This document shows positions 13,770 to 41,495 of a DNA stretch of 64,000 nucleotides, in pieces. Origin of the DNA: Thiobacillus sp. (lineage in GTDB: Bacteria; Pseudomonadota; Gammaproteobacteria; Burkholderiales; Thiobacillaceae); the NCBI GenBank assembly GCA_030679915.1, contig JAUXRY010000042.1, positions 1 to 64,000 of the forward strand, written 5' to 3'. Within the stretch, counting starts at the first letter, position 1, and each line of letters starts with the position of its first letter. The notes under the pieces are model-generated. The model searched no databases. It was not told where the DNA came from and saw only the letters and a program-made list of their open reading frames with translations. The translations under genes and the position numbers were made by a program.

Positions 13770-14468
13770 TCAGTTGAGCGGCTGCAGGGTATTGCCTTCG
13801 ACCCGCACGCGTGCACCGACGCTGGCCGGCGTGGCCTGCTCGATGCTGTGGAAACTGCCGTCATCCATGCGCAACTCCACGCGGTAGGCCGTCACTTTTT
13901 TCATCTTTTTCTCGACCGCATTACCAGCCAGGCCACCGCCCACCGCACCGGCAATGGTGGCCAACGTCTTGCCGTCGCCACCACCAAACTGGTTGCCGAC
14001 CAGGGCACCGAGCACGCCACCGGCCACGGCACCAGCGCCACTGCCCGTGCCCTCGCGTTCCACCGGCGTCACGGCGGTCACCGTGGCGCAGTTCAGGCAG
14101 ACCTCCTTGGCAGGCAGCACAGTGGTGGATTTGCCCGTCGCCGTGTCGGCCGATGCTGTTGCGGACGATCCGCTGCTACCGGCAGGCTTGGCAGACCGGC
14201 TGGCCACCGCCTTGCCTGCGCCGGTTTTTTTCTCAGGTGCAACGGCCTTCGGTTCTAGCGCCGGCACGGGTTGGGAAGCGCTCAGCGCCGGCACCACCAC
14301 CGGCACGGGAACCGGGCTCACTGCGGCGGTGTGCAGCGCCTCCTGGCGCGTTTGCACGTAATACAGTGCCGAGCCCAGGGCCACCACCGCCACACCAAGC
14401 ACGCCTATCGCGGCCCACAGGGTTTGGTTACGCGCCGAGCTGGATGCGGTTTGCGACATATCGTTCAT
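13770..14468 (-). CDS. Glycine-zipper 2TM domain protein
   Basis: A 232-residue protein. An N-terminal membrane anchor (TLWAAIGVLGVAVVALGSALY, residues about 16-36) is followed by a Pro/Ala/Val-rich linker, a CLNC motif, and a glycine-zipper block (GAVAGGVLGALVGNQFGGG ... AGAVGGGLAGN) of the SlyB/Rickettsia 17-kDa type. The C-terminal part is a small beta-rich segment (VTAYRVELRMDDGSF). GAGGAA upstream of ATG 14468 sets the start. These proteins sit in the cell envelope; their specific role is unclear. Monocistronic. Confidence 0.75.
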   Translation of the reverse strand: MNDMSQTASSSARNQTLWAAIGVLGVAVVALGSALYYVQTRQEALHTAAVSPVPVPVVVPALSASQPVPALEPKAVAPEKKTGAGKAVASRSAKPAGSSGSSATASADTATGKSTTVLPAKEVCLNCATVTAVTPVEREGTGSGAGAVAGGVLGALVGNQFGGGDGKTLATIAGAVGGGLAGNAVEKKMKKVTAYRVELRMDDGSFHSIEQATPASVGARVRVEGNTLQPLN

Positions 14469-26535: not shown

Positions 26536-26934
<399 letters not shown>

Positions 26935-26945
26935 GGAGTATGACG

Positions 26946-28364
26946 ATGAAAAAGCTACTTACTTCTCTGGGCTTGATGTGCGTACTGCTGGCCCCCGGCA
27001 TGACGTTTGCTCAAGATGCAGCGGCGCCGACGGAAACCGCTGTGGTTGAGACCATGGCAATCGAGGAAGCGGCGCCGGTTGCCGTTGAAGTTGCCGCGGT
27101 TGCTGCGACAGAGACCGCAGCGCCCGTCCCCGACAAAGGCGACACCACCTGGATGATGGTTTCCACCTTGCTGGTGATCTTGATGATCATTCCGGGCGTG
27201 GCCTTGTTCTACGGCGGTCTGGTTCGCGCCAAAAACATGTTGTCGGTACTGACTCAGGTCATGGCCATTTTCTGCCTGATTTCCATCCTGTGGGCGGTGT
27301 ACGGCTACTCGCTGGCGTTTGGTGATGGTGGTGGTCTCAACTGGATGATCGGTGATCTGTCCAAGATGTTCCTGGCCGGCATTACCCCTGACAGTACGGC
27401 CGCGACCTTTACCGATGGTGTGGTGATCCCCGAACTGGTGTTCGTGGCCTTCCAGCTGACCTTTGCTGCCAGTACCGTGGCGCTGATCGTCGGCGGCCTC
27501 GCCGAGCGGGTGAAATTCTCCGCCCTGATGGTGTTTGGCGCACTGTGGTTCACGTTCTCCTACCTGCCGATTACGCACATGGTGTGGGCAACGGGCGGTT
27601 ATCTGTTTGAACACGGCGCCCTCGACTTTGCGGGCGGCACGGTGGTGCACATCAACGCAGGTATTGCAGCGCTGGTGGGCGCTATCGTGCTGGGCAAACG
27701 TATCGGCTACGGCCGCGACGCGATGCCGCCGCACAACCTGCCGATGACCATGATCGGTGCCTCGCTGCTGTGGGTGGGCTGGTTCGGCTTTAACGCCGGT
27801 TCCAACCTCGAAGCCACCGGCGGTGCTGCGCTGGCCTTCATGAACACCATTCTGGCCACCGCAGCTGCGGGCTTGTCATGGATGCTGGCCGAGTGGATGT
27901 TGCGCGGCAAGCCCTCCATGCTGGGTATTGCATCGGGTGTGGTGACGGGTCTGGTTGCCGTTACCCCGGCCGCTGGTCTGGTGGGCCCGATGGGTGCGAT
28001 CGTCCTCGGTGCAATCGCTGGCGTAATCTGCCTGTGGGGCGTGTCTGGCCTGAAGAAAGCCCTGGGCTACGATGACAGCCTCGACGTCTTCGGCATCCAT
28101 GGTATCGGCGGCATCGTCGGCGCCATCGGCACCGGCATCTTTGTTTCGCCGGCGCTGGGTGGTGTGGGTGTCGACGGTTACACGATGGGTGGTCAGGTCA
28201 TGACGCAGGCTACGGGTGTGCTCATCACCATCGTCTGGTCGGGTGTGGTCAGCTTCGTGGCATTCAAGCTGATCGACATGACCATCGGTCTGCGCGTTTC
28301 CGAAGAACAGGAACGTGAAGGTCTGGATACCGCAAGCCACGGCGAGCGGGCCTACAACCTCTAA
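26946..28364 (+). CDS. amtB: Ammonium transporter Amt (right copy)
   Basis: A 472-residue Amt channel. A signal peptide (ends MTFAQD) and an Ala/Glu/Val-rich linker of about 40 residues precede the channel domain, which begins around GDTTWMMVSTLL. Pore histidines occur in GGTVVHINAG and LDVFGIHGIGG. The second of two nearby ATG codons (26946) is chosen because AAGGAG is seven bases upstream of it. The cytoplasmic tail (SEEQEREGLDTASHGE) is the family's GlnK-contact region. A strong terminator follows. Confidence 0.95.
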   Translation: MKKLLTSLGLMCVLLAPGMTFAQDAAAPTETAVVETMAIEEAAPVAVEVAAVAATETAAPVPDKGDTTWMMVSTLLVILMIIPGVALFYGGLVRAKNMLSVLTQVMAIFCLISILWAVYGYSLAFGDGGGLNWMIGDLSKMFLAGITPDSTAATFTDGVVIPELVFVAFQLTFAASTVALIVGGLAERVKFSALMVFGALWFTFSYLPITHMVWATGGYLFEHGALDFAGGTVVHINAGIAALVGAIVLGKRIGYGRDAMPPHNLPMTMIGASLLWVGWFGFNAGSNLEATGGAALAFMNTILATAAAGLSWMLAEWMLRGKPSMLGIASGVVTGLVAVTPAAGLVGPMGAIVLGAIAGVICLWGVSGLKKALGYDDSLDVFGIHGIGGIVGAIGTGIFVSPALGGVGVDGYTMGGQVMTQATGVLITIVWSGVVSFVAFKLIDMTIGLRVSEEQEREGLDTASHGERAYNL

Positions 28365-28417: not shown

Positions 28418-28721
28418 ATTGGGCGAGCGTAAGAGATCGGTTGCGTTGATAACACTTTTAAGGTGCTGCGCTATCGAATGACAGGGCACCTTGCCAGGGT
28501 GCAGGTCACCCATGGTTCACGCCTCATTCCTTGCGTAACGAAAACAAGATCAATTGCCTGGGAATGATATTTGAGACGCCATCTGGCGCCCGCTCTTTTC
28601 TGCTCCGGTTGCCAAAACAGTGCGATTGCGCACTAAAAGAATGCTCTGTTCACCATGATGCGGGAAACATTGTTTTCTGGTTATTGCTATCTATTCATGG
28701 TGATAGATTGTTTTTTTGATA
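28418..28721 (+). promoter_or_regulatory. Long regulatory leader of the guanidine cluster with NtrC-like sites
   Basis: No supported gene. The best NtrC-like site is at 28627-28644 (TGCGCAC-TAAAAGA-ATGC; one mismatch in GCAC-N7-GTGC), about 80 bases upstream of the promoter and closely similar to the 25615 palindrome. Weaker dyads are GCACC-N7-GGTGC at about 28486-28502 and the pair AAGGTGC / GCACCTT at about 28460-28491. I looked for the conserved cores of guanidine-I, -II and -III riboswitches and did not find them. Confidence 0.5.
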
Positions 28722-28737
28722 TGGCACGGTGGTTGCT
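28722..28737 (+). promoter_or_regulatory. Consensus sigma-54 promoter of the guanidine cluster
   Basis: TGGCACGgtggTTGCT is a full match to the -24/-12 consensus (TGGCACG-N4-TTGCW). The predicted start of transcription is about 28748, fifty bases before the first gene. Together with the upstream dyads this places the whole cluster under RpoN and very probably NtrC. Confidence 0.88.
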
Positions 28738-28798
28738 TTTAGTGAATTGAATATTACGAATATTCATTTCGGTAATACCACTCATCTAGGAGCCCACC

Positions 28799-29797
28799 AT
28801 GAATGTGAAGCACATCGGAAGCACCCTGAAAACGCTGTTGACGCGGCTGGTGATCCCCGTCGCCGTCGCCATTTCCTTTTCCGCCCAGGCGGCCCAGCCC
28901 CTCAAGATTGGCTACAGCGACTGGCCGGGCTGGGTGGCGTGGCAGGTCGCCATCGACAAGGGCTGGTTCAAGGAGGCGGGCGTGCCCGTCACCTTCGAGT
29001 GGTTCGACTACTCGGCCTCGATGGATGCGTTTTCGGCCGGCAAGATCGACGCGGTCACCATGACCAACGGCGATGCGCTGGTCACCGGCGCTGCAGGCGG
29101 CAAGAGCGTCATGGTGATGCTGACCGATTATTCCAATGGCAACGACATGATCATCGGCAAGCCGGGTGTGCGTTCCCTCAAGGCCCTCAAGGGCAAGAAG
29201 GTGGCAGTGGAATTGGGTTTCGTTGAGCATCTGCTGCTGCTCAACGGCCTGAAAAAAGCGGGCATGAAGGAGTCCGATGTCACGCTGGTCAACGCCAAGA
29301 CCAACGAGATGCCGCAGATGCTGGCCTCGGGTGATGTCGCCGCGGTTGGTGCCTGGCAGCCCATCGCCGGTCAGACCATGAAGTCGGTACCGGGTGCCCG
29401 GCCCATCTACACATCCGCTGACGAACCCGGCCTGATCTATGACGTGCTCGCGGTGAATCCCGCCAGCGCCAAGCAGCGCCGCGCTGAGTGGATCAAGGTC
29501 GTGAAGGTGTGGGACCGTGTCGTGAAGTACATCAACGATCCCAAGACCCAGCCGGATGCGGTGAAGATCATGGCCGCACGTGTTGGCGTTTCGCCCGAAA
29601 CCTACCTGCCGCTGCTCAAGGGCACCAAGCTGCTGAGCCTGGATGACGCGAAGAAGATCTACGTCAAGGGGAACGGTTTCAAGACCTTGTACGGTTCGTC
29701 CAAGATTGCGGATGATTTCAACGTTGCCAATGACGTGTACAAGACGCCCCAGGACCTGAACAGCTATCTGGATTCGTCTTTCACCTTTGCCAAGTAA
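28799..29797 (+). CDS. ABC transporter substrate-binding protein (guanidine/urea cluster)
   Basis: A 332-residue periplasmic binding protein of the TauA/SsuA/NMT1 group. A signal peptide (about residues 1-31, ending FSAQAAQ) is followed by the start [24 protein letters not shown] and a two-lobed fold. Close relatives next to urea carboxylase genes are often named 'putative urea ABC transporter'; the linked DUF1989 genes point rather to guanidine or another guanidino compound. Start ATG 28799 has TAGGAG upstream. First gene of the cluster, 21 bases before the permease gene. Confidence 0.85.
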
Positions 29798-29818
29798 CTG
29801 AACCGAGACGGAGCGGAC

Positions 29819-30781
29819 ATGAGCTTGATTGCCAACCTGGCCAGCGTGGATAGCGAGATGCGCAAGCGCACCCTGCTGGCAATCGGTTCGTTCCTGCTGC
29901 CGCTGCTGGTTTGGTGCATGGTCAGTTATGTCCCGTTCATCTGGCATCCCAAGGTCGAGGTCACCGATCCCGGTGGCGTCGACTACTTCCAGATTGGCAT
30001 GCTGGTGGACAAGTCCCAGTTCAAGGACGAGGCTGCCTTCACGCGGACTGAGAAGCTGGCCCCCCCGGCCGGCAAGCCGGCCAACCCCATTTACCTGCCG
30101 GCGCCGCACGAAGTCGCGCAGGCGTTCTACACCGGCTTTACCAAACAACCTGTGCAGAAAGATGCACCGTGGCTGCACGAAAGCCTGTGGCACAGCATCC
30201 AGATCATCTTCTGGGGATTCCTGATTTCTTCGCTCATTGGTGTGCCGCTCGGCATCCTGGCTGGAACCTATTCCACCTTTGCCCGGCTGAGTGAACCCTT
30301 CATCGAATACTTTCGCTACCTGCCGGCACCCGCGTTTGGTGCTTTGGCGGTGGCGATTCTCGGTATCTACGACGGGCCCAAGATCGCGATCATCGTCATC
30401 GGCACGCTGTTCCAGCAGGTGCTGATCATCGCCAACACCACGCGCAAGCTGGAAGCCACCATCATCGAGGCGGCGCGCACGCTGGGTACGCGCGGGATCA
30501 AGTTGCTAACCAAAGTCGTGGTACCGGGCATCCTGCCCGATCTCTACCGCGACCAGCGCATCCTGCTCGGCTGGGCCTGGACTTACCTGATCGTGGCCGA
30601 GCTGATCGGCACCAGTTCCGGCATCACGTTCTATATCACCCAGCAGGCGCGCTACCAGCATTTTGACAACGTCTACGCCGCCATCATGATCATCGGCATC
30701 ATCGGCTTCGGCACCGATCTGATCCTGGGTCGCCTCGGTCGTCGCCTGTTTCCCTGGGATCGTACCCAGGATCGTCGCTGA
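29819..30781 (+). CDS. ABC transporter permease (guanidine/urea cluster)
   Basis: A 320-residue inner-membrane protein with an N-terminal helix, a long periplasmic segment (about residues 45-110, rich in Pro and Lys), and a BPD_transp_1 core with about five more helices. The EAA loop that contacts the ATPase is visible as [26 protein letters not shown]. The long first periplasmic loop distinguishes it from ordinary SsuC/TauC permeases. It is sandwiched between its binding protein and ATPase genes, so the three form one importer. Confidence 0.85.
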
Positions 30782-30792
30782 GGGCACACGTC

Positions 30793-31704
30793 ATGAACCA
30801 GAAAAACCTGCCCAGCTATCTGGATCAGTCGGAGGACGTGAAGGCGCGCTTCGACAAGATCAACCAGCGTGAAACTATTCTCGAAGTGCGCAACCTCGGC
30901 AAGCGCTTTCGCACGCAGCAGGGCGAAGTCGAGGCCTTGCGCGGCATCAATTTCAGCGTGCGCCGTCGCGAATTCGTCTGTGTCATCGGCCCCTCCGGCT
31001 GCGGTAAGTCGACCCTGATTCGCATCCTTGCCGGCCTGGAGGATCACACTTCCGGCGACGTGCTGCTCGACGACAAACCAGTCAAAGGCCCCGGCCAGGA
31101 TCGCGGCATGGTGTTTCAGGGCTATTCCCTGTTCCCCTGGTTGACGGTGAAGCAAAACGTGATGTTCGGGCCGCAAATAAAAGGCCACGGCAAGGACGAA
31201 GCCGAGCGCGATGCCCGCACCTGGCTGGAACTGGTCGGCCTGGAGAAGTTCGCGGATTCCTATCCGCATCAGCTTTCCGGCGGCATGCGCCAGCGCGTCG
31301 CCATCGCCCGCGCGCTGGTCAACCAGCCGCGCATCCTGCTGATGGACGAGCCCTTCGGCGCGCTTGACGCGCAGACCCGCTCGAAGATGCAGTCGCACCT
31401 GATCGACATCTGGAAAAACATCGACATCACGGTGCTGTTCATCACCCACGATCTCGACGAAGCGATCTATCTGGCCGACCGCATCCTGGTGCTGAAGGCG
31501 CATCCGGGCGAGGTGCAGGAAGTCATCGAAGTGTCAGTGCCGCGTCCGCGTTCGCCGGGCCAGTTCAATACGCCGGAATTCATGGCCACCAAGGCGCGAC
31601 TGGAGCAATTGATTCATCCCGCACCGGCGCCTGAGCCGGAAGACGAGCAGGCGGCGCAACCGCAGATGATCCGCTTCACCAACGTTGCCGACAACGTCGA
31701 ATAA
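30793..31704 (+). CDS. ABC transporter ATP-binding protein (guanidine/urea cluster)
   Basis: A 303-residue nitrate/sulfonate/taurine-type ABC ATPase. Walker [10 protein letters not shown] near residue 75, signature [15 protein letters not shown] near 165, Walker [13 protein letters not shown], and switch histidine in [11 protein letters not shown]. The N-terminal 35 residues ([15 protein letters not shown]) and the C-terminal tail ([14 protein letters not shown]) extend beyond the usual 260-residue core. It is ten bases from the creatininase-family gene. Confidence 0.9.
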
Positions 31705-31714
31705 GGCCTTATTT

Positions 31715-32494
31715 ATGCGCTGGTCTGATCTCACCTGGTCCGAAATTCCCGACGTGCTGGCCCGCTGCGGCCAGGCGGCCATGCTGCCGGTGGGCGCCAC
31801 CGAGCAGCATGGCCCGCACCTCGGGTGCGGCGTCGATTCCGTGATCGCCGAGCAACTGTGTGAGGCAGTCGCCGCGCAGACCGGCGTGCCGATGCTGCCG
31901 ACGCTGCCGTACGGCTGCTCGCTCGGCCACAGTCGGCGCTGGCCCGGCACGATTGCGCTGCAACCGGTCACGCTGATTCAGGTGGTCAAGGAAGTCGGCG
32001 ACTGGGCGTATCACAGCGGCATCCGCCGCCTGTTCATCGTCAACGCCCATGTCACCAATGCCGCACCGCTGCGCTGTGCGCTGGAAATGCTGCGCGCAGA
32101 ACACGACGACCTGATGGTCGCGGTGATCAATACCGCGACCATCAGCGAACGGGTGCGCCAGTTTCATTTCGCCGACGCCGCCGACTGGCATGCCAACGAC
32201 GCCGAAGCCTCGATCATGCTGGCGATTGCCCCCGAAGGCGTGCGCCCGGACAAGCTGATGGATGCCGATGATCCGGACCGCACCTGCGGCTGTGTTTTCG
32301 CGCATCCGGTCAACCGCACCAGTTTGAATGGCGTCACCGGCACGCCCAGTCTGGCCACGGCGGAGAAGGGCGCGCTCTGGTTCGACTGGCTGGTGGCCGA
32401 CCTCGCCGCTCTGATTCATAAGGGCACGGCTGAAACGCCGCCGCTTGACCAATCCTATTTCGGGGACGCCGTCCCCGCTGTTACGAACCGATAA
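31715..32494 (+). CDS. Creatininase-family amidohydrolase
   Basis: A 259-residue creatininase-fold protein. The metal-site motif [10 protein letters not shown] with a downstream Asp (GCGVDS) fits the usual Glu/His/Asp ligands, and an Asn-Ala-His (NAHVTN) replaces the common NGHGGN. The late motif [12 protein letters not shown] stands where most members have GHAGE-ETS. Members hydrolyse cyclic or linear amides, including creatinine. Inside a guanidine-type operon it could release guanidino compounds or ammonium from an imported precursor; that is inference. Start ATG 31715 with AAGG upstream. The next gene is 13 bases away. Confidence 0.78.
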
Positions 32495-32507
32495 ACAAGG
32501 ACGCATC

Positions 32508-33926
32508 ATGAACGCAAGCGACAACACGGCCGTGCTGGAAAAAGTGAGCCCCCAACCTGACGCACGCCATTCGGCTGAAGCGACGGCTCAATTGCAGCGC
32601 GAACTAACCGACAAGGGCGTGAAATACTGCATCGGCGCCTACGTCGACATCCACGGTGTGCCCAAGGCCAAGGTCGTGCCCATCGCCCATCTTGGACACA
32701 TGGCCAAGGGTTCCGAGCGCTACACTGGTTACGCGCTGGATGGTTTGGGCCAGGCGCCCAACGACGACGAGCTGACCTCGATGCCCGACCTCGACCGCGC
32801 CATCCAACTACCGTGGGAACCGAAGATCGCCTGGATTCCGTCTGACAATCATTTCCAGGGCCAGCCTTATCCGTTGAACACCCGCGTCTCTCTGAAGAAC
32901 CAGCTGGCCAAGGCGGCCGAGATGGGCTACGGCCTTAACCTGGGCATCGAGTGCGAAATATTCCTGCTCAAGCAGAATGCGGATGGCAGCCTGTCGGTGC
33001 CCGTCGCCGACGACAAGCTGACCAAGCCCTGCTACGACGTGCGCGGCTTCGTCGACAATTTCTCCTGGCTCGACAAGGTGGCCACCTCGATCAACGACCT
33101 CGGCTGGGACCTGTATTCCTTCGACCACGAAGATGCGAACGGCCAGTTCGAGTTCGACTTCAACTATGCCGATGCGCTGACCACCTGCGACCGGCTGACT
33201 TTCTTCCGCTTCATGGCCAAGCACTACGCCAAGGAAGAAGGCCTACTGGCCACCATGATGCCCAAGCCGTTTGCCGACAAGACCGGTAACGGCGCGCACT
33301 TCAACATGTCGATCTACGACCTGGAGACCGGCAAGAACCTGTTCGCATGTGCGCCTGAGGATGACCCCCACGGCATCGGCCTGACCCCGCTCGGGTACAG
33401 TTTCGTGGCCGGCATCCTTAAGCACGGTCGCGCCCTGTGCGCCGTGTTCGCCCCCACGGTCAACAGCTACAAACGCCTGGTCCGTCGCGGTGCGATGAGC
33501 TACTTTTCTTGGGCGCCGGTGTTCAACTCCTGGGGTTCCAACAACCGCACCAACTCGGTGCGCATTCCGTCCGGTGGTGGCCGCTGCGAATCGCGCAACG
33601 CCGACGGCGCAGTGAACCCCTATCTGGCGGCCACGCTGGCGCTGGCCGCCGGTCTCGAAGGCATTCGCGAGGGGCTCGATCCGGGCAACCCCAACGAGGA
33701 CAACCTGTACGCCATCGGCGATGACGAACGGCGCGAGCGCGGCATCGAGTTCCTGCCGCAAACCCTGCAGGAAGCGGTCGCCGCCTTCGCCGAAGACCCG
33801 CTGGTGGAAGCCACGCTGGGCAAGGGACTGCGCGACGAATTCATCCGCTATAAAACTGAGGAGTGGGAGGCGTACCACCTGACCGTGAGCAAGTGGGAAG
33901 TTGAACGCTACAGCTACATGTTCTGA
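32508..33926 (+). CDS. glnT: Type III glutamine synthetase (GlnT class)
   Basis: A 472-residue glutamine synthetase of the class called type III in rhizobia (GlnT). It has the beta-grasp N-domain ([16 protein letters not shown]), the catalytic Glu motif [21 protein letters not shown] for ATP/glutamate, and the signature [11 protein letters not shown]. It joins ammonium to glutamate. The adenylylation loop of GlnA is not evident, so control is probably transcriptional. Its place in the cluster, between importer and ammonia-releasing enzymes, suggests it captures ammonium as it is made. GGA of AAGGACGC precedes ATG 32508. Confidence 0.9.
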
Positions 33927-33979
33927 ACACCCATGAATCAATCTACTGCGCGCCCCAATCCCGGCCCTGCGATGCGCAT

Positions 33980-33993
33980 CGTACGCGAGTACG
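33980..33993. promoter_or_regulatory. Candidate operator palindrome before the NikR-like gene
   Basis: CGTAC-GCGA-GTACG is a 14-base dyad directly next to a second palindrome, GATGCGCATC (33971-33980), in the 143-base gap before the NikR-like gene. Ribbon-helix-helix regulators bind such short dyads and often their own promoter. No sequence match to the long NikR operator of enterobacteria. Confidence 0.35.
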
Positions 33994-34069
33994 ACTGTGC
34001 TTCTCGGACCGGCCTTGGATCGCTCGCGACGATTGCTTCACGGGTGTTGCGCTATAAAAGGGAGCTGCC

Positions 34070-34540
34070 ATGACGACGAAGGAGGACAAGGTCTCAACGC
34101 TGGTCAGTCGCATCAGCGTTTCGTTGCCGCCGGACCTGCTGGCCGAACTGGACGGCATGGTCGAAAGCCGGGGCTACGACAGTCGCTCGCAGGCGATCGG
34201 CGAGATGGTCAACTACCAGTTGGCCGAGCACAAGCGTAGCCTCGGTAACGAGGTGATGGCTGGCACGCTCACGTTGCTATACAACCGGGCCACGCGCGGC
34301 TTGCAGGGCAGGCTGGCGGACATCCAGTATCAGCATGTCGTCGAAGTCATCAGTTCGTTGCACGTACACCTGACCGAGGACCAGATGCTGGAAGTGATTC
34401 TGGTTCAGGGCCCGGCCGTCAAGCTTCAGGCCATCGCCAATGAAATGATTGCCCAGCGCGGTGTCATCACCGGCCGGCTACAACTGCTGACAGCGGTGAT
34501 TCCGCCGCTGCATGCGCCGGCACACGAAAAGGAAATGTAA
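34070..34540 (+). CDS. NikR-like ribbon-helix-helix regulator with altered metal ligands
   Basis: A 156-residue protein with a ribbon-helix-helix DNA-binding domain (RISVSLPPDLLAELDGMVESRGYDSRSQAI, residues about 14-44) and a C-terminal ACT-like NikR domain (about 60-145). The conserved LHVH pair (His98, His100) is kept. The position of the nickel-ligand cysteine of NikR is Met106, and the first ligand histidine aligns with Tyr87 or, with a gap, His89. So it may sense another metal or a small molecule. It ends one base before the next gene (TAATGG overlap), inside the cluster. The most likely target is this cluster's downstream part. Confidence 0.8.
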   Translation: MTTKEDKVSTLVSRISVSLPPDLLAELDGMVESRGYDSRSQAIGEMVNYQLAEHKRSLGNEVMAGTLTLLYNRATRGLQGRLADIQYQHVVEVISSLHVHLTEDQMLEVILVQGPAVKLQAIANEMIAQRGVITGRLQLLTAVIPPLHAPAHEKEM

Positions 34541-35346
34541 TGGACCATCCCGAACTTGCACTCGACAACCCGCCGGCCACGGCACCCGTCGACGTGCCCG
34601 AACACTGGCGCCGCTTCGCACCCGATCTTGCGGCCGAGACGGTGCTGTTCTCCGACTTGGTGCCCGGCGGCGGCCACTGGTCCTACCGGCTGCCGCGCGG
34701 CACCACGCTGCGCATCACCGCGCTGGACGCCGGTGCCAACCTGTCGCTAGTGCTCTATTCGGCCCAGGAAAAGCTGGAACGCTACAACATGCCGGATTCG
34801 CTCAAGGCTCAGCACACTGCCCACTACACCCACGGCCACGTCCTGATGAGCGACATGGGGCGGGCCATGGCCTCGATTACCGCCGACAGCCTGGGCTGGC
34901 ACGACCCGCTCGGTATGCTGCTCGACAACCGCCTGATGCACGAAAAATATGGCGACCATGCCTACCAGGACAACCGCAACGGCATGACGCGCTCGGGTCG
35001 CGATGGCCTGCTGATCGAGATCGGAAAATACGGACTGGCCAAGCGCGACCTGGTGGCGCCGGTCAACGTCTTCAGCAAGATCACGGTCGATGCCGAAGGC
35101 CGCTTCCGCTATGTGCCCGACCATGCCAAGGCCGGCGACTTCATCGACCTGCGCATGGACATGGACGTGCTGGTCGCGTTTTCCGCCGCGCCGCATCCGC
35201 TTAACCCTGCACCAGCTTACCCAGCGAGCAAAGTCGGCCTGGCGGTGTGGCGTTCCGGCCCGGCGCCCAGGGACGACTATTGCCGCGCCTTCCGCTCGGA
35301 AAATGCGCGTGCGCTGCACAATACCGACATGCTCTACCTGACCTGA
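34540..35346 (+). CDS. Carboxyguanidine deiminase subunit (DUF1989, urea amidolyase-associated protein 1 type)
   Basis: A 268-residue DUF1989 protein. Proteins of this family that flank 'urea carboxylase' genes were shown in Pseudomonas to form a two-subunit carboxyguanidine deiminase that converts carboxyguanidine to allophanate and ammonium. Visible: GGGHWSYRLPRGTTLRITALDAGANLSLVLY, a central NRNGMTRSGRDGLL region, and DLRMDMDVLVAFSAAPHPLNP near the C-terminus. The start ATG overlaps the stop of the regulator gene by one base. The two subunits lie next to each other, 11 bases apart, as in other operons of this type. Confidence 0.85.
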   Translation: MDHPELALDNPPATAPVDVPEHWRRFAPDLAAETVLFSDLVPGGGHWSYRLPRGTTLRITALDAGANLSLVLYSAQEKLERYNMPDSLKAQHTAHYTHGHVLMSDMGRAMASITADSLGWHDPLGMLLDNRLMHEKYGDHAYQDNRNGMTRSGRDGLLIEIGKYGLAKRDLVAPVNVFSKITVDAEGRFRYVPDHAKAGDFIDLRMDMDVLVAFSAAPHPLNPAPAYPASKVGLAVWRSGPAPRDDYCRAFRSENARALHNTDMLYLT

Positions 35347-35357
35347 GGAAACTGGCC

Positions 35358-36017
35358 ATGACTGCTGCTGCCATTCGCATCCAGGAAAGTACGCTGGCCC
35401 CCGAGGCCGCCGTGCTCGACCACACCCTGCCCGCGGGCGAACCCTATCTGCTGGCGATCGACAAGGGGCAGACCCTGCGCATCGTCGACCTCGAAGGCAA
35501 CCAGGCCGTCGATGTCATCTTCTACAACCGCGACGACGGCGCCGAGCATTACAGCGCCACTGAAACCATCCTGCGCCAGGGTGGCATCTACCTGACCACC
35601 GGATCGGTTCTGTACAGCGACGACGGTCATCCCATGCTCACCATCGTCGCCGATACCTGCGGCCGCCACGATACCCTCGGCGGCGCCTGTGCGGCCGAGA
35701 GCAACACGGTGCGTTACGCGCTGCAGAAGAAGTTCATGCACAGCTGCCGCGACAACTACCTGACCGCGCTGCAGCATGCCGACATCGGCCTCGGCAAGCG
35801 CGATCTGGTGCCCAACATCAACTTCTTCATGAATGTTCCGGTGACCGAGTCGGGCGAGCTGACCTTCGCCGACGGCGTCTCGGCGCCTGGAAAATACGTC
35901 GAACTGCGCGCCGAAATGAACCTGTGGATGCTGGTGTCAAATTGCCCCCAGCTCAACAATCCCTGCAACGCCTACAATCCGACACCGGCCCGCTTCCTTC
36001 TCTGGAACCCGCAATAA
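35358..36017 (+). CDS. Carboxyguanidine deiminase subunit (DUF1989, urea amidolyase-associated protein 2 type)
   Basis: A 219-residue DUF1989 protein, the partner of the preceding one. It carries the conserved LRIVDLEGNQAVDVIFYN start, the cysteine motif GGACAAESNTVRYA, HSCRDNYLTAL and DLVPNINFFMNVPV, all typical of the second subunit. Together the two are expected to bind one catalytic metal. Start ATG 35358 follows TGAGGAA. The alternative old annotation 'urea carboxylase-associated protein' describes linkage only; the pair is the best marker that this cluster uses guanidine rather than urea. Confidence 0.88.
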   Translation: MTAAAIRIQESTLAPEAAVLDHTLPAGEPYLLAIDKGQTLRIVDLEGNQAVDVIFYNRDDGAEHYSATETILRQGGIYLTTGSVLYSDDGHPMLTIVADTCGRHDTLGGACAAESNTVRYALQKKFMHSCRDNYLTALQHADIGLGKRDLVPNINFFMNVPVTESGELTFADGVSAPGKYVELRAEMNLWMLVSNCPQLNNPCNAYNPTPARFLLWNPQ

Positions 36018-36081
36018 ACCCGGCCCGGGACGACCCAGGCCGGTAATGAAAAGATGCGGGACGCCCCGCACCAGGTGACCT

Positions 36082-39000
36082 ATGTTCAAGAAAGTCCTGA
36101 TCGCCAACCGCGGCGCCATCGCCTGCCGCATCATCCGCACCCTGCGCACCATGGGGGTCAAATCGGTCGCCGTCTATTCCGAGGCGGACCGCCATTCGCT
36201 GCACGTGCGACTGGCTGACGAAGCGGTCGAGATCGGCCCGGCGCCGGCGGCGCAAAGCTACCTGCGCGGCGAGACAATCCTCGAGGTTGCGAAGGCCACC
36301 GGCGCCCAGGCGATCCATCCCGGCTACGGCTTCCTGTCCGAGAACCCCGGCTTTGCCGAGGACTGCGCCGCCGCCGGTATCGCCTTCATCGGCCCCAGCC
36401 CGGACCAGATGCGCGCCTTCGGCCTCAAGCACACCGCGCGCGATCTGGCCGAACACAACAAGGTGCCGCTGCTGCCCGGTTCCGGCCTGCTGTCTGATGC
36501 GGGTCATGCGCTGGCCGAAGCCGCGCGCATCGGCTACCCGGTGATGCTGAAGAGTACCGCTGGCGGTGGCGGCATCGGCATGCGCCTGATCTGGAGCAGC
36601 GATGAACTGGTGGATGCCTTTCAGTCAGTGGAGCGACTGGCGCGCGCCAACTTCAAGGAGGCCGGCATCTTCCTCGAGAAATACGTCGAGCACGCGCGCC
36701 ATATAGAGGTGCAGATCTTCGGCGACGGCAAGGGTAATGTCGTCGCGCTGGGTGAGCGCGATTGCTCGGTGCAGCGGCGCAACCAGAAGGTGATCGAGGA
36801 AACCCCGGCGCCCGGCTTGACCGACACACAACGCAGGAACCTGCTGGCCACTGCTGTGCGCCTCGGTGAAGCAGTCGGCTACCGTTCGGCCGGCACGGTT
36901 GAGTTCGTCTATGACACCTTGAGTGCCGAATTCTATTTCCTCGAAGTGAACACGCGGCTGCAGGTCGAGCACGGCGTCACCGAGGAAGTCACCGGCGTCG
37001 ATCTGGTCGAGTGGATGGTTAAGGAGGCTGCCGGCGAACTGGACCTGTCCGGCTTCAAGGCGGAACCCCAAGGCGCGTCGATACAGGTGCGCCTGTATGC
37101 AGAAGATCCGGGCAAGGACTTCCAGCCCGCCGCCGGTGTGTTGACCGAGGTGGTGTTCTCGCCGGATGCGCGCATCGAGACCTGGGTCGAGCGCGGTTCC
37201 GACGTGCCGCCGTTCTACGATCCGATGGTGGCGAAGATCATGGTCAAGGGCAGCGACCGTGCAGACGCTTTGAAAAAAATGCAGCAGGTGCTGGCGCATA
37301 CCCGTGTCGCAGGTATCGAGACCAACCTCGGCTACCTCGCGCAGATCGTGCGCGACAGCGTGTTCATGGAAGGGCGTCAGACCACGCGCTACCTCAATGC
37401 CTTCCACTACCACCCGGCAACAATTGATGTGATTGAGCCCGGCGTGCAGAGCAGCATCCAGGACTGGCCGGGCCGTACCGGCTACTGGGACGTCGGCGTG
37501 CCGCCATCGGGGCCGATGGACGCGTTGTCGCTGCGTCTCGCCAACCGCCTCGCCGGCAATGCCGAGGGAACGGCCGGTCTGGAATTGACCGTCGCCGGTC
37601 CCACGCTGCGCTTCAACTGCGACAGCGTGATCGCGCTGGCCGGCGCCGACATGGCCGCCGAACTCGACGGCCAGCCGCTGGCCAACTGGGCGGCGCATGC
37701 GGTCAAGGCCAGCGCGATGTTGAAGCTCGGCGCGATCAAGGACATCGGTTGTCGCGCCTACCTCGCGGTGCGCGGTGGCTTCGACGTGCCGGATTACCTC
37801 GGCAGCAAGGCGACTTTTACGCTGGGCCAGTTCGGCGGCCATGCCGGACGCACGCTGCGCGTCGGCGACGTGTTGCACGTCACGGCAGCGGACGCATCGA
37901 GTATCAGCAATCCATTGCCTGCCACACTGGTGCCCGTCTACAGCCACGCTTGGGAAATCGGCGTGCTCTACGGTCCGCACGGCGCACCGGATTTCTTCAC
38001 CGATGCCGACATCGACCTGTTCTTCGCCACCGACTGGGAAGTGCATTACAACTCCAGCCGCACCGGCGTCCGCCTGATCGGCCCACGGCCCGAATGGGCG
38101 CGCAAGGACGGCGGTGAGGCCGGCCTGCATCCGTCCAACATCCACGACAACGCCTACGCCATCGGCGCGGTCGACTTCACCGGCGACATGCCGGTGATCC
38201 TCGGTCCGGACGGCCCTAGCCTCGGTGGCTTCGTCTGTCCGGCCACCATCGTGCAGGCTGAGCTGTGGAAGATGGGCCAGCTGCGTCCCGGCGACACCGT
38301 GCATTTCAAGCGGCTTTCGCAAGTACAGGCCGAGCGCATGGAGGCGGCACAGGATGCTGCCATCGCCAGTCTCGCCGCCCCGGCTGCGCCTTCGTTGATT
38401 GTCGATGCCGGAGAACTCGCCGAACCCGTCCTGCATCGCACGCCCGACATCGACAATCCGGTCGCCGTGGTCTACCGTCGCGCCGGCGACAAGTATCTGC
38501 TGGTCGAACACGGCCCGCTGGTGCTCGACCTCAACCTGCGCTTCCGCGTGCACGCGCTGATGACGCAACTGCAGGCCGATGCCGTGCCGGGCATCCTCGA
38601 CCTCACGCCGGGCATTCGCTCGCTGCAGGTGCACTACGATTCGCGCGTGCTGCCGCTGTCCAAACTGATGGATCTGCTGCTGGCCGCAGAAAAGGCGCTG
38701 CCAGCTATCGAGGACATGCAGGTGCCGACCCGGATCGTGCACATTCCGCTGTCGTGGGACGATGCCGCCACGAAACTTGCCATCGAGAAATACATGCAGT
38801 CGGTGCGCAAGGACGCGCCCTGGTGCCCGAGCAACATCGAATTCATCCGCCGTATCAACGGGCTCGAATCGATTGAAGAGGTGAAGCGCATCGTGTTCGA
38901 GGCCAGCTATCTGGTGATGGGCCTGGGCGACGTGTATTTGGGCGCACCGGTGGCGACACCGGTCGACCCGCGTCATCGCATGGTCACGACCAAGTACAAC

Positions 39001-39699
39001 CCCGCGCGCACCTGGACCCCGGAAAACGCCGTCGGCATCGGCGGCGCCTACATGTGCGTGTACGGCATGGAAGGCCCCGGCGGCTACCAGTTCGTCGGCC
39101 GCACCTTGCAGATGTGGAACCGTTGGCGCCAGACCGCCAATTTCACCGACGGTAAGCCGTGGCTGCTGCGCTTCTTCGACCAGGTGCGATTCTTCCCGGT
39201 CAGCGCAGAGGAACTGCTGACAATCCGTGAAGACTTTCCGCTTGGCCGCTACCAGTTGAAGATCGAGGAAACCACGTTCAGCCTGCGCGAGTACAACCAG
39301 TTTCTCAGCGACAATAACGAATCCATCGTCGCCTTCAAAGCACAGCAGCAGGCCTCGTTCGATGCCGAGCGCGAACGCTGGCGTGCCAGCGGCCAGGCCG
39401 ACTACGCCAGCGACCTGATCGTGGCCGAAGCTGCGCCCGACAGCGAACTCGACCTGCCGGAGCACGGCCGCGCCATCGCCAGCCACGTCGCCGGCAACGT
39501 GTGGAAGGTGGAAGTGGAGGCGGGTGCCGTAGTCAAGCAGGGCGATACCCTCCTGATCATCGAATCGATGAAGATGGAGTTCGCTGTGATGGCGCCGTGT
39601 GATGGGCGCATCCACACCGTTTTCTGCCGCGAAGGCGGTCAGGTATCAGCCGGCCAGGATCTTCTGGTGCTGATCAGCGAATGTGCGCCAAAATCATGA
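36082..39699 (+). CDS. Biotin-dependent guanidine/urea carboxylase
   Basis: A 1205-residue multidomain enzyme. Biotin carboxylase domain at 1 to about 450 (KKVLIANRGAIACRI start, glycine loop AGGGGIGMR near 160, EVNTRLQVEHGVTE near 290). Then the carboxyltransferase part with KipA/AHS2-like (from EPGVQSSIQDWPGRTGYW, about 455-760) and KipI/AHS1-like (about 790-1010) regions, and a C-terminal biotinyl domain with IESMKMEF (Lys about 1164). It lacks a fused allophanate hydrolase. Classic annotation is urea carboxylase; with both DUF1989 partners it is probably a guanidine carboxylase making carboxyguanidine from guanidine, bicarbonate and ATP. Its stop overlaps the next start (ATGA). Confidence 0.9.
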   Translation: MFKKVLIANRGAIACRIIRTLRTMGVKSVAVYSEADRHSLHVRLADEAVEIGPAPAAQSYLRGETILEVAKATGAQAIHPGYGFLSENPGFAEDCAAAGIAFIGPSPDQMRAFGLKHTARDLAEHNKVPLLPGSGLLSDAGHALAEAARIGYPVMLKSTAGGGGIGMRLIWSSDELVDAFQSVERLARANFKEAGIFLEKYVEHARHIEVQIFGDGKGNVVALGERDCSVQRRNQKVIEETPAPGLTDTQRRNLLATAVRLGEAVGYRSAGTVEFVYDTLSAEFYFLEVNTRLQVEHGVTEEVTGVDLVEWMVKEAAGELDLSGFKAEPQGASIQVRLYAEDPGKDFQPAAGVLTEVVFSPDARIETWVERGSDVPPFYDPMVAKIMVKGSDRADALKKMQQVLAHTRVAGIETNLGYLAQIVRDSVFMEGRQTTRYLNAFHYHPATIDVIEPGVQSSIQDWPGRTGYWDVGVPPSGPMDALSLRLANRLAGNAEGTAGLELTVAGPTLRFNCDSVIALAGADMAAELDGQPLANWAAHAVKASAMLKLGAIKDIGCRAYLAVRGGFDVPDYLGSKATFTLGQFGGHAGRTLRVGDVLHVTAADASSISNPLPATLVPVYSHAWEIGVLYGPHGAPDFFTDADIDLFFATDWEVHYNSSRTGVRLIGPRPEWARKDGGEAGLHPSNIHDNAYAIGAVDFTGDMPVILGPDGPSLGGFVCPATIVQAELWKMGQLRPGDTVHFKRLSQVQAERMEAAQDAAIASLAAPAAPSLIVDAGELAEPVLHRTPDIDNPVAVVYRRAGDKYLLVEHGPLVLDLNLRFRVHALMTQLQADAVPGILDLTPGIRSLQVHYDSRVLPLSKLMDLLLAAEKALPAIEDMQVPTRIVHIPLSWDDAATKLAIEKYMQSVRKDAPWCPSNIEFIRRINGLESIEEVKRIVFEASYLVMGLGDVYLGAPVATPVDPRHRMVTTKYNPARTWTPENAVGIGGAYMCVYGMEGPGGYQFVGRTLQMWNRWRQTANFTDGKPWLLRFFDQVRFFPVSAEELLTIREDFPLGRYQLKIEETTFSLREYNQFLSDNNESIVAFKAQQQASFDAERERWRASGQADYASDLIVAEAAPDSELDLPEHGRAIASHVAGNVWKVEVEAGAVVKQGDTLLIIESMKMEFAVMAPCDGRIHTVFCREGGQVSAGQDLLVLISECAPKS

Positions 39700-41495
39700 A
39701 CATACCCTACAGTCTCGATATTGCCACCCTGCGCCAACGCTATCAGTCCGGCAGCTTCACCCCGCTGGATCTGGTGGAAGCCCTGCTTGAACGGTTGGCT
39801 GGGGAAGACAGCCATCACATCTGGATCAGCCGCCTCGACGCCGATGCCCTGCGTGCTTACGCCAGTGCCCTGCAAGGCAAGGATCCCACGAGTCTGCCGC
39901 TCTACGGCATTCCCTTCGCCATCAAGGACAACATCGACCTCGCCGGTCTGCCCACCACTGCGGGCTGTCCGGAATATGCCTATTCGCCAACTCAGACCGC
40001 CACGGTTGTGCAGCGCCTGATTGACGCCGGTGCGATTCCGCTCGGCAAAACCAACCTCGACCAGTTTGCAACGGGGCTCAACGGCACCCGCTCGCCCTAC
40101 GGCGCCTGCCGCAACGCCTTCAATCCAGACTACATTTCCGGTGGCTCCAGCGCCGGCTCGGCGGTCGCCGTGGCGCTCGGCCTGGCCAGCTTCTCGCTCG
40201 GTACCGACACCGCCGGCTCCGGTCGCGTGCCCGCTGCCTTCAACAACCTCGTCGGCCACAAGCCAAGCTGCGGTGCGCTGTCCACCCGCGGCGTGGTACC
40301 TGCTTGCCGCTCGCTCGATGCGGTGTCGATCTTTGCGCTGACGGCTGAAGACGCCGAGCGCGTGCTGGCGGTCGCTGCCGGCTTCGATGCCGAAGATGAA
40401 TATTCGCTGACGCTGGAGCCGCATGGTTTTGACTTCGGCCGCGCAGGCAGTTTTCGTTTTGGTGTGCCGCTGGAGAAAGGCCTGGAATTTTTTGGTAATG
40501 CCGACGGCGAACGCCTGTTCGGTCAAGCGGTGGAGCGGTTGGAGGCGCTGGGCGGCACGCCGGTAGCAATCGATCTCGCTCCCTTTCTGGAAACTGCTCG
40601 CCTGCTTTACGGTGGCCCCTGGGTGGCCGAGCGCTACCTCGCCATCCGTGATTTCTTCGACGCGCACTCCGACAAGGTTTTTCCGCCGGTACGTGAAATC
40701 ATCGCCGGCGGTCGCAACTACAGCGCCGCCGACACCTTTGCTCATCTTTACAAATTACGCGCGGCCAAGCGGATCTGCGATGCTGCATGGAACGACATCG
40801 ATGTGATGCTCACGCCCACCGCCGGGACGATCTATCGCGTGGAGGAAATGGAAGCGGACCCCATCCGCCTCAATTCCAACCTCGGCTACTACACCAACTT
40901 CATGAACCTGCTCGACCTCGCCGCCACCGCCGTTCCGGCCGGGTTCCAGAACGACGGTTTGCCATTTGGTATCACCCTGATCGCGCCATTGCATCAGGAT
41001 GGCCCGCTGTTGCATCTGGCTTCGCGCATGCAGCAGGCGCTCGGCGCAAGGCTGGGTGCAACCGATCATGCGCTGCCCGCTGCTGAGTCCTTGAACCTGC
41101 TTGCCGACGGCCAGATCCGTGTCGCCGTTGTCGGCGCTCACTTGAGTGGGCTTCCGCTCAACAGCCAGTTGACCGACCGCAACGCGCGTCTGGTCGCCGC
41201 AACGCAGACTGCGTTGAACTACCGCTTATACGCGCTACCCGATGGCAAGCGCCCCGGCCTCGTAAAGGTCCCGACAGACGGAGCGGCGATCGCCTGCGAA
41301 GTCTGGGAGATGCCCGCAAGCCAGTTCGGCTCTTTCGTGGCAGGTATCCCGGCGCCGCTTGGCATCGGCAAGCTGGAGCTAACCAATGGATCAATCGTGA
41401 ATGGCTTTATCTGCGAAGGTATTGGTGTGGCCGATGCTCAGGATATAACGGCGTACGGGGGCTGGCGGGCTTGGCTGGCGAGTATGAGTGACTGA
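39696..41495 (+). CDS. atzF: Allophanate hydrolase
   Basis: A 599-residue allophanate hydrolase that splits allophanate to two ammonium and two carbon dioxide. The amidase-signature domain (1 to about 460) shows the Ser-cisSer-Lys triad: Lys77 in FAIKDNIDLAG, GGSSAGSAVAVALG and GTDTAGSGRVPAAF. The C-terminal domain (about 475-599) that completes carboxylate removal is present (SFVAGIPAPLGIGKLEL). Of three nearby in-frame starts I take ATG 39696, overlapping the carboxylase stop. Last gene of the cluster; it is convergent with the FHA gene. Confidence 0.92.
   Translation: MNIPYSLDIATLRQRYQSGSFTPLDLVEALLERLAGEDSHHIWISRLDADALRAYASALQGKDPTSLPLYGIPFAIKDNIDLAGLPTTAGCPEYAYSPTQTATVVQRLIDAGAIPLGKTNLDQFATGLNGTRSPYGACRNAFNPDYISGGSSAGSAVAVALGLASFSLGTDTAGSGRVPAAFNNLVGHKPSCGALSTRGVVPACRSLDAVSIFALTAEDAERVLAVAAGFDAEDEYSLTLEPHGFDFGRAGSFRFGVPLEKGLEFFGNADGERLFGQAVERLEALGGTPVAIDLAPFLETARLLYGGPWVAERYLAIRDFFDAHSDKVFPPVREIIAGGRNYSAADTFAHLYKLRAAKRICDAAWNDIDVMLTPTAGTIYRVEEMEADPIRLNSNLGYYTNFMNLLDLAATAVPAGFQNDGLPFGITLIAPLHQDGPLLHLASRMQQALGARLGATDHALPAAESLNLLADGQIRVAVVGAHLSGLPLNSQLTDRNARLVAATQTALNYRLYALPDGKRPGLVKVPTDGAAIACEVWEMPASQFGSFVAGIPAPLGIGKLELTNGSIVNGFICEGIGVADAQDITAYGGWRAWLASMSD

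Follow-up and report, generated by a model that had tools for sequence, protein, structure and literature searches.

A guanidine carboxylase operon of a Thiobacillus species headed by a conserved intake module and a NikR-derived putative repressor

Guanidine metabolism came to light through riboswitches, and the natural sources of guanidine and the full range of compounds involved are still a question. The guanidine carboxylase route has been described (PMC11410670; PMC12186494; PMC12508155), and the closest described system is the operon of Vreelandella boliviensis and its kin, such as that of P. syringae DC3000 (PMC12508155). In V. boliviensis a guanidine-I riboswitch heads the operon and a guanidine-II riboswitch, which also binds methylguanidine, precedes the carboxylase gene (PMC12508155). 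We analysed a related operon in a window of 64,000 nucleotides (contig JAUXRY010000042.1, positions 1 to 64,000) from a draft Thiobacillus sp. genome (GCA_030679915.1; 2.52 Mb, 79.7% complete). It has in common with the V. boliviensis type a carboxylase with the guanidine signature, a DUF1989 pair, an allophanate hydrolase and an ABC importer; before the carboxylase it has a guanidine-II-like element that scores below the gathering threshold, where V. boliviensis has its guanidine-II riboswitch. The operon head differs, since a sigma-54 promoter and a NikR-type operator stand where V. boliviensis has its guanidine-I riboswitch; a hydrolase-ligase pair is additional, and no MgdH-type dioxygenase was found in the window genome. 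The guanidine carboxylase operon is the known part of the locus. What is new, as judged by sequence comparison, is a conserved guanidine-linked intake module together with a NikR-derived putative repressor and its operator.

The ten genes of the operon (28799-41495), each confirmed present, are collinear and tightly spaced, with successive gaps of 21, 11, 10, 13, 143, -1, 11, 64 and -19 bp, and the nearest relatives of the cluster were found in Thiobacillus and other Hydrogenophilales. An earlier note on this stretch, made from the letters alone, had listed ten collinear genes with named families. Family models bear out the genes and the families, but 'GS' (glutamine synthetase), 'creatininase' and 'NikR' did not survive as functional names. 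The operator and the guanidine-II-like element are additions to that list. The features are as follows.

28630 to 28644, + strand: tentative NtrC-like site GCACTAAAAGAATGC, by likeness to the NtrC consensus
28722 to 28737, + strand: sigma-54 promoter TGGCACGGTGGTTGCT, 12 of 12 consensus positions, the sole exact match in the window
28751 to 28778, + strand: NikR-type operator ATATTAC-N14-GTAATAC, one mismatch to the family consensus GTATTAC-N14-GTAATAC
28799 to 29797, + strand: substrate-binding protein of the ABC importer, NMT1/SsuA type (PF09084/PF13379; TIGR01728 and TIGR03427 below cut-off)
29819 to 30781, + strand: permease of the ABC importer (PF00528)
30793 to 31704, + strand: ATPase of the ABC importer (PF00005)
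31715 to 32494, + strand: creatininase-family metal amidohydrolase of its own clade (PF02633; creatininase metal ligands present, substrate residues changed)
32508 to 33926, + strand: GS-like gamma-glutamyl ligase, 'clade M' (TIGR03105; residues for metal and glutamate intact; distinct from GMAS and GS)
34070 to 34540, + strand: NikR-like putative repressor without the nickel site (PF08753, NikR_C, and PF01402, RHH; Cys95 lost)
34540 to 35346, + strand: carboxyguanidine deiminase subunit (UAAP1, DUF1989; TIGR03425 326 bits, cut-off 205.95)
35358 to 36017, + strand: carboxyguanidine deiminase subunit (UAAP2, DUF1989; TIGR03424 336 bits, cut-off 284.7)
36022 to 36069, + strand: guanidine-II (mini-ykkC) riboswitch-like element (RF01068 30.8 bits, gathering 32)
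36082 to 39699, + strand: biotin-dependent guanidine carboxylase (TIGR02712 1914.5 bits, cut-off 1303.85; Asp698)
39681 to 41495, + strand: allophanate hydrolase (TIGR02713 803.8 bits, cut-off 511.05)

We propose that these genes would form a single nitrogen-limitation operon for guanidine nitrogen, built of two blocks. Block 2 (34540-41495; the DUF1989 pair, carboxylase and allophanate hydrolase) would take guanidine through carboxyguanidine and allophanate to ammonia and CO2, and its signature residue, its families and the guanidine-II-like element place it in the known route. Block 1 would be an intake module, comprising a dedicated ABC importer, the creatininase-fold amidohydrolase, the gamma-glutamyl ligase and the NikR-derived repressor. 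Transcription would start from the sigma-54 promoter and be held off by the NikR-like protein, bound at GTATTAC-N14-GTAATAC after the -12 element, until guanidine or a guanidino compound releases it. With the step of the enzyme pair set apart, we regard this two-block operon and its regulation as reasonably probable.

Relatives were collected in two surveys. In the first, 150 genomes of the order were searched for relatives of four genes and 20 stretches were taken; in the second, a six-sequence hydrolase alignment was searched against 84,980 species genomes, and the best 80 of at least 557 confirmed places were retained. Among these 80 loci, L047, L053 and L061 represent the genomes of L014, L016 and L013, and the sets of 84 hydrolase, 75 clade M ligase and 55 NikR-like sequences used below each count three genomes twice.

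The carboxylase of the window aligns over almost its full length with the urea amidolyase of K. lactis. Its Asp698 (TIGR02712 position 701) lies opposite Asn1330 of the K. lactis urea carboxylase, and the Asp of its GLGDV motif, which the alignment equates with K. lactis 1584, is kept. An Asp at the 1330 position and a conserved Asp at 1584 are the criteria for a guanidine carboxylase (PMC11410670). Across the window, the 80 loci and L142-L169, the residue at the 1330 position was Asp in 70 of the 71 sources with a readable motif and Asn in one (L155, the genome of L065). The 1584 equivalent was Asp in 77/77 motif matches. Two DUF1989 subunits, both above cut-off, stand beside the carboxylase, as expected of a carboxyguanidine deiminase. 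By its residues, then, the carboxylase is of the guanidine and not the urea type, and the earlier assignment of a guanidine carboxylase is upheld by the Asp opposite Asn1330 and the guanidine-II-like element in front of the gene; because of these same two features we equate the core with the known guanidine carboxylase pathway. Two separate observations concern related genes. In the Hyphomicrobium bin of L065/L155, which carries the hydrolase-ligase pair, the carboxylase is of the urea type (Asn) and a guanidine-I riboswitch precedes a divergent gene set; and the window genome holds a third DUF1989 gene away from the operon (contig C20, 29598-30095).

At the gathering score, Rfam reported no riboswitch in the window. 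When the gap between UAAP2 and the carboxylase was searched alone, RF01068 matched at 36022-36069 with 30.8 bits, below the gathering score of 32 (E 7.2e-5; 161 bases). The loops of this element read ACGA and ACGC, the second departing from ACGA/G. In the Thiobacillus relative L033 the same gap holds a guanidine-II riboswitch (14165-14212, 39.6 bits), and so does that of L056 (44.7 bits). Rfam was run at the gathering score on 32 loci, twice on L079 and L110, and guanidine-III and -IV were looked for in these runs only; a hairpin pattern was applied to the 48 readable UAAP2-carboxylase gaps. Two ACGA/ACGG hairpins were present in 23 of the 48, as against 8/2400 length-matched random regions drawn from these loci; the second loop of the window, ACGC, keeps it out of this group. 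Two ACGN hairpins were present in 30/48 gaps, including that of the window (random regions, 23/2400).

The hydrolase and ligase genes were adjacent on one strand in 79 of the 80 loci, L100 being the exception. The two do travel with the cluster in relatives; the earlier note had set their never doing so as a refutation of its own reading, and that test is passed. The carboxylase lay inside the locus in 51 of the 80. Of the remaining 29, 26 genomes were checked (L071, L075 and L077 were left out) and 22 had a carboxylase elsewhere, giving 73 of 77 checked genomes; no match was found in the other four, L055, L061, L068 and L098. For L055 and L068 this absence is weak, as both are draft bins. Most relatives thus combine block 1 with the carboxylase route; in these two its neighbour is a guanidinase-type gene, a member of the arginase family that in L068 is a fragment at a contig end. 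Among solved structures, the L055 protein was closest to 7esr/7oi1 and 9fek (539 and 529 bits; the next, 169), which are guanidine hydrolases. In L055 (4674-13412) a guanidine-I-headed set comprises an importer, a 315-aa hypothetical protein, a 2-oxoglutarate (2OG) dioxygenase, the hydrolase, the ligase and the guanidinase-type gene.

The first six genes, from the binding protein to the NikR-like regulator, stand alone in L013 and L014, where unrelated genes then follow; one of these two genomes has a carboxylase elsewhere with its own importer (L015), and the other gave no match. The importer, hydrolase, ligase and NikR-like regulator therefore form a separable module. In the set from the order, six genomes whose best hydrolase match was just 31-36% identical gave no carboxylase match, and no match to the module was found in 72,556 plasmid records at E 1e-40. 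L085, whose title names it a Klebsiella pneumoniae metagenome bin, carries the module; a binning or naming error may explain that title.

The regulator, which the earlier note just listed, is the most informative part of the locus. Upstream regions were readable in 61 loci and the window, and a site with three or fewer mismatches was counted as an operator match. By this measure GTATTAC-N14-GTAATAC was present in 41 of the 42 regions with a local NikR-like gene and without a guanidine-I riboswitch (L037 misses it, with four mismatches) and in 1 of the 14 guanidine-I-headed regions (L055, three mismatches), compared with 47/3100 random regions of the same loci. The spacing of 14 stands out, other spacings from 8 to 21 giving one case or none each at two or fewer mismatches, and the site lies just past the -12 element of the sigma-54 promoter. 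Apart from the window operator, no site in the searched part of the draft genome had fewer than two mismatches; sites with three or fewer numbered 33, below the control (70).

NikR operators are inverted repeats of 27-28 bp, with the form GTATGAT-N13/14-ATCATAC in enterobacteria and GTGTTAC-N13/14-GTAACAC in delta-proteobacteria (PMC545781; PMC7055735), and the operator described here has this geometry. The window protein likewise has the RHH and NikR_C architecture of NikR from E. coli and P. horikoshii, but differs in its missing nickel site, its GTATTAC operator and the single local target found in the window genome. Six further regions had the operator form and neither a local NikR-like gene nor a guanidine-I riboswitch; in all five of their genomes that were searched (L075, a short contig, was left out) a NikR-like gene of 41-47% identity was present elsewhere. 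In two of the five, L086 and L109, a guanidine-II riboswitch lies farther upstream, before a desaturase-type gene. The operator is evident from conservation, and its binding by the NikR-like protein, with repression as the outcome, is what we infer from it.

In E. coli NikR the nickel ligands are His76, His87, His89 and Cys95 (PMC7055735). The window protein has Tyr, His, His and Met at these positions, and over the 55 NikR-like sequences Cys95 was kept in none, His76 in 11, His87 in 49 and His89 in 46. Nickel sensing is thus unlikely on the evidence of the residues, and an ordinary nickel sensor was rejected on this ground.

To locate guanidine-I riboswitches we built a covariance model from 28 Rfam matches and ran it over the 80 loci and the window. 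Neither this model nor Rfam (RF00442) found a guanidine-I riboswitch in the window. One heads the module in 14 loci (L048, L055, L059, L064, L066, L072, L074, L081, L084, L085, L091, L093, L095 and L108), with one extra gene between riboswitch and binding protein in L064. Some of these 14 sequences were themselves in the model; for L048, L055, L081 and L108 Rfam itself reports guanidine-I, as it does for the genomes of the remaining ten. A second guanidine-I riboswitch precedes UAAP1 in L074, L091, L093 and L095, and one is found before UAAP1 in L044, L046, L051, L067, L073, L102 and L104. With the exception of L066, the genomes with a module-heading riboswitch (13 of 14) have no NikR-like gene of this type, two of the 13 showing just 25-28% identical NikR matches. 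L012, which is outside the 80, has a guanidine-I riboswitch (4911-5016) behind a sigma-54-like site, no operator with two or fewer mismatches and no NikR-like gene of this type (best match 30% identical, on another contig). In 14 loci and in L012 the riboswitch occupies the promoter position at which the window and 41 other loci have a protein gene and an operator. Fisher's exact test gave p 2e-12 for this exchange, on rows that are related by descent.

By sequence, the NikR-like protein appears to take the place of the riboswitch at the operon head, though not genome-wide, and a role as a protein sensor, for guanidine or some related compound, is probable: the exchange at the same promoter and the lost nickel site lead us to suggest release by guanidine or a guanidino compound. 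Several observations weigh against so direct an interpretation. The riboswitch label changes just 4 times on a 59-row ligase tree, and in a test on independent pairs, 0 of 3 pairs were the same and on average 2.7 were opposite (median p 0.25); with just four independent exchanges, the sensor claim rests on few events. Moreover, 15 genomes with a NikR-like module also carry a guanidine-I riboswitch elsewhere, L066 has both devices at the module, and the window operon itself holds a guanidine-II-like element. For these three reasons the ligand of the regulator may be the substrate of the module rather than guanidine.

The amidohydrolase of block 1 was compared with P. putida creatininase. All metal ligands (E34, H36, D45, H120, E183) and His178 were kept in 84/84 sequences. 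Tyr121, Glu122 and Trp174, the residues with which creatininase handles its substrate, were replaced in all 84. A Trp was present at 177 in every sequence, three places past 174, which makes a shifted equivalent of Trp174 possible. Position 154 was not used, as the reference row 3a6h is seemingly mutant there. The hydrolase scored 124.7 bits against the TIGR04448 creatininase equivalog cut-off of 235, and it also missed the MftE and IolN equivalog cut-offs. It thus shares the fold family and metal ligands of creatininase and is, by its residues, a creatininase-family amidohydrolase without the creatininase substrate residues. Creatinine, which the earlier note had offered as a possible source, was given up as the leading idea because of the missed cut-off and the replaced residues, and no creatinase is found among the ten genes.

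The ligase scored 659.5 bits with the TIGR03105 model of type III glutamate-ammonia ligase (cut-off 469.6). The closest solved chain was 9qur, named a glutamate-methylamine ligase, followed by 7cql, both ahead of glutamine synthetases; we take 7cql to be RhGmaS, which fits the spacing of Asp177 and Glu186. The RhGmaS residues for Mg, glutamate, ATP and the amine pocket have been named (PMC7948447). The Mg- and glutamate-binding residues were kept in 75/75 clade M sequences, ATP-site residues were changed at 175, 189 and 237, and a loop differs. Five of the seven amine-pocket residues (K30, Y147, Q175, D177, E179, E186, N188) were kept; Gln175 was replaced by Ser and Asn188 by Asp in all 75 and in 10/10 sequences of a second group, clade H. 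The two clades stood together apart from the methylamine ligases (SH-aLRT 99) in a quick tree of 43 rows that held 26 of the 75 clade M sequences, the long GS and RhGmaS rows leaving its root unsure. In glutamine synthetase Asp50 and Ser53 belong to the ammonium site, and a flap Glu is a further mark of the enzyme. The first two were Thr and Ala in 75/75 clade M sequences and replaced in 85/85 of clades M and H, and a Glu in the flap column was present in just 2/75, a loss that RhGmaS shares. Residues and tree together indicate that the GS-like enzyme is neither a glutamine synthetase nor a methylamine ligase.

For the pair we put forward, tentatively, that the ligase would place a gamma-glutamyl group onto guanidine or a close derivative and that the hydrolase would cleave the gamma-glutamyl acyl-guanidine bond, so that incoming guanidine would be trapped and then released to the carboxylase. 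Creatinine itself is a cyclic acylguanidine. Four points count against this proposal. Making and then breaking the same bond would waste ATP; Ser175 and Asp188 of the ligase point to true glutamine synthetases (Ala and Asp) no less than to a different pocket; the pair occurs without a carboxylase match in Methylobacillus arboreus (L061) and Hyphomicrobium NDB2Meth4 (L098), guanidinase not having been searched there; and in L018 (3905-13370) a clade H ligase lies between guanidine-type importer and carboxylase genes in a guanidine-I-headed operon without a hydrolase. From this last case, hydrolase and ligase are not obligate partners. A Pfam search of the neighbours of clade H ligases found little, some of the open reading frames used being probably from the wrong strand. 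That the gamma-glutamyl-guanidine step, which no known guanidine pathway contains, and a NikR-like guanidine or guanidino sensor, evolved from a nickel sensor and interchangeable with guanidine-I at the operon head, should both hold is doubtful.

Alternatively, the module may take up a guanidine that bears an acyl or alkyl group; the hydrolase would free guanidine from it, and the ligase would add glutamate to the amine set free at the same time. This is possible, if on balance unlikely. It would suit the module importer of G047, which differs from the carboxylase-linked importer (permease 36% and ATPase 49% identical to those of the window), and the extra genes of relatives: among the 80 loci were a membrane desaturase-type (FA_desaturase) oxygenase in 15, a TIM-barrel protein in 15 and a 2OG dioxygenase in 4. 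A relative of the 315-aa hypothetical protein, a metallo-beta-lactamase-fold protein and an EamA transporter were present in 8 loci each. The fatty-acid-desaturase-type oxygenase and an AP_endonuc_2 TIM barrel recur in L074, L085, L086, L096, L101, L105 and others, and may constitute an alternative methylguanidine demethylase. Demethylation of methylguanidine by a dioxygenase and a lyase, MgdH and MgdL, is known (PMC12508155), and the desaturase, TIM-barrel and dioxygenase genes recall these two by type. However, matches were found genome-wide in just 10/49 genomes for the desaturase query and 8/49 for the dioxygenase query, with no relative of either in the window genome, and a demethylase as obligate partner was rejected for this reason. 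Nor do we know of any natural acylguanidine substrate. The source may still be a larger guanidino compound, as the earlier note had imagined: demethylase-type genes lie in the loci of some relatives, though the window genome gave no relative of either oxygenase query.

The earlier note had instead given the GS-like enzyme the role of assimilating guanidine-derived ammonia, closing a path from import to glutamine. We consider this unlikely. Its TIGR03105 score above cut-off, its gene's place in a sigma-54 operon and the related ligase of L018, in a guanidine operon without the hydrolase, are compatible with such a role, but the genome encodes a separate canonical GS at another place (473 bits against 291), no sequence of either clade keeps Asp50 or Ser53, the closest solved chain is named a glutamate-methylamine ligase, and the paired hydrolase would be left unexplained. 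The guanidine core and the linkage of the pair to it, as the earlier note had them, stand.

The NikR-like protein is quite improbable as a conventional nickel regulator for a nickel enzyme of the cluster. It passes two NCBIfam NikR equivalog cut-offs (failing TIGR02793) and has a NikR-type operator, but Cys95 is lost throughout and His76 mostly, neither a nickel importer nor a known nickel enzyme occurs among the ten genes, and the protein exchanges with a guanidine-I riboswitch. That the ligase is a gamma-glutamylmethylamide synthetase collecting methylamine is hardly credible and was rejected, since its match to 9qur, its Asp177 and Lys30 and the many carriers that are methylotrophs by name are outweighed by the separate clade, the changed pocket residues at 175 and 188 (85/85) and the additional GMAS-like gene in L033, L034 and the genomes of L027 and L028.

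If our reading of the regulator is correct, it would represent a guanidine-type protein sensor for which the open-access literature searched gave no description, and an RNA switch and a protein switch that swap places. The hydrolase-ligase pair, conserved in sulfur oxidisers and methylotrophs, would mark a guanidine-linked reaction for which the accessible parts of that literature gave no assignment. No paper on the module or the regulator was found there; most subscription papers lay outside this scope, and a prior mention is possible. Two candidates were discarded: in its accessible part, one has a creatininase-subfamily gene of M. smegmatis in an expression table with no cluster seen (PMC4617892), and the other, retrieved with NikR and urea carboxylase terms, concerns yeast urea use only (PMC2667541).

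The single sigma-54 promoter that the earlier note placed ahead of the operon is an exact site, and it is conserved upstream of the module: 41 of the 62 homologous upstream regions scored at least 10/12, as against 15/1194 random regions of the same loci, which puts the site beyond chance. The tentative NtrC-like site GCACTAAAAGAATGC is kept with three or fewer changes in L032-L036 and not clearly in L038 and L041. The cluster is immediately preceded, on its own strand, by a P-II (glnK-type) gene (26545-26934) and an ammonium transporter gene (26940-28364), with which a nitrogen-limitation context of the operon fits.

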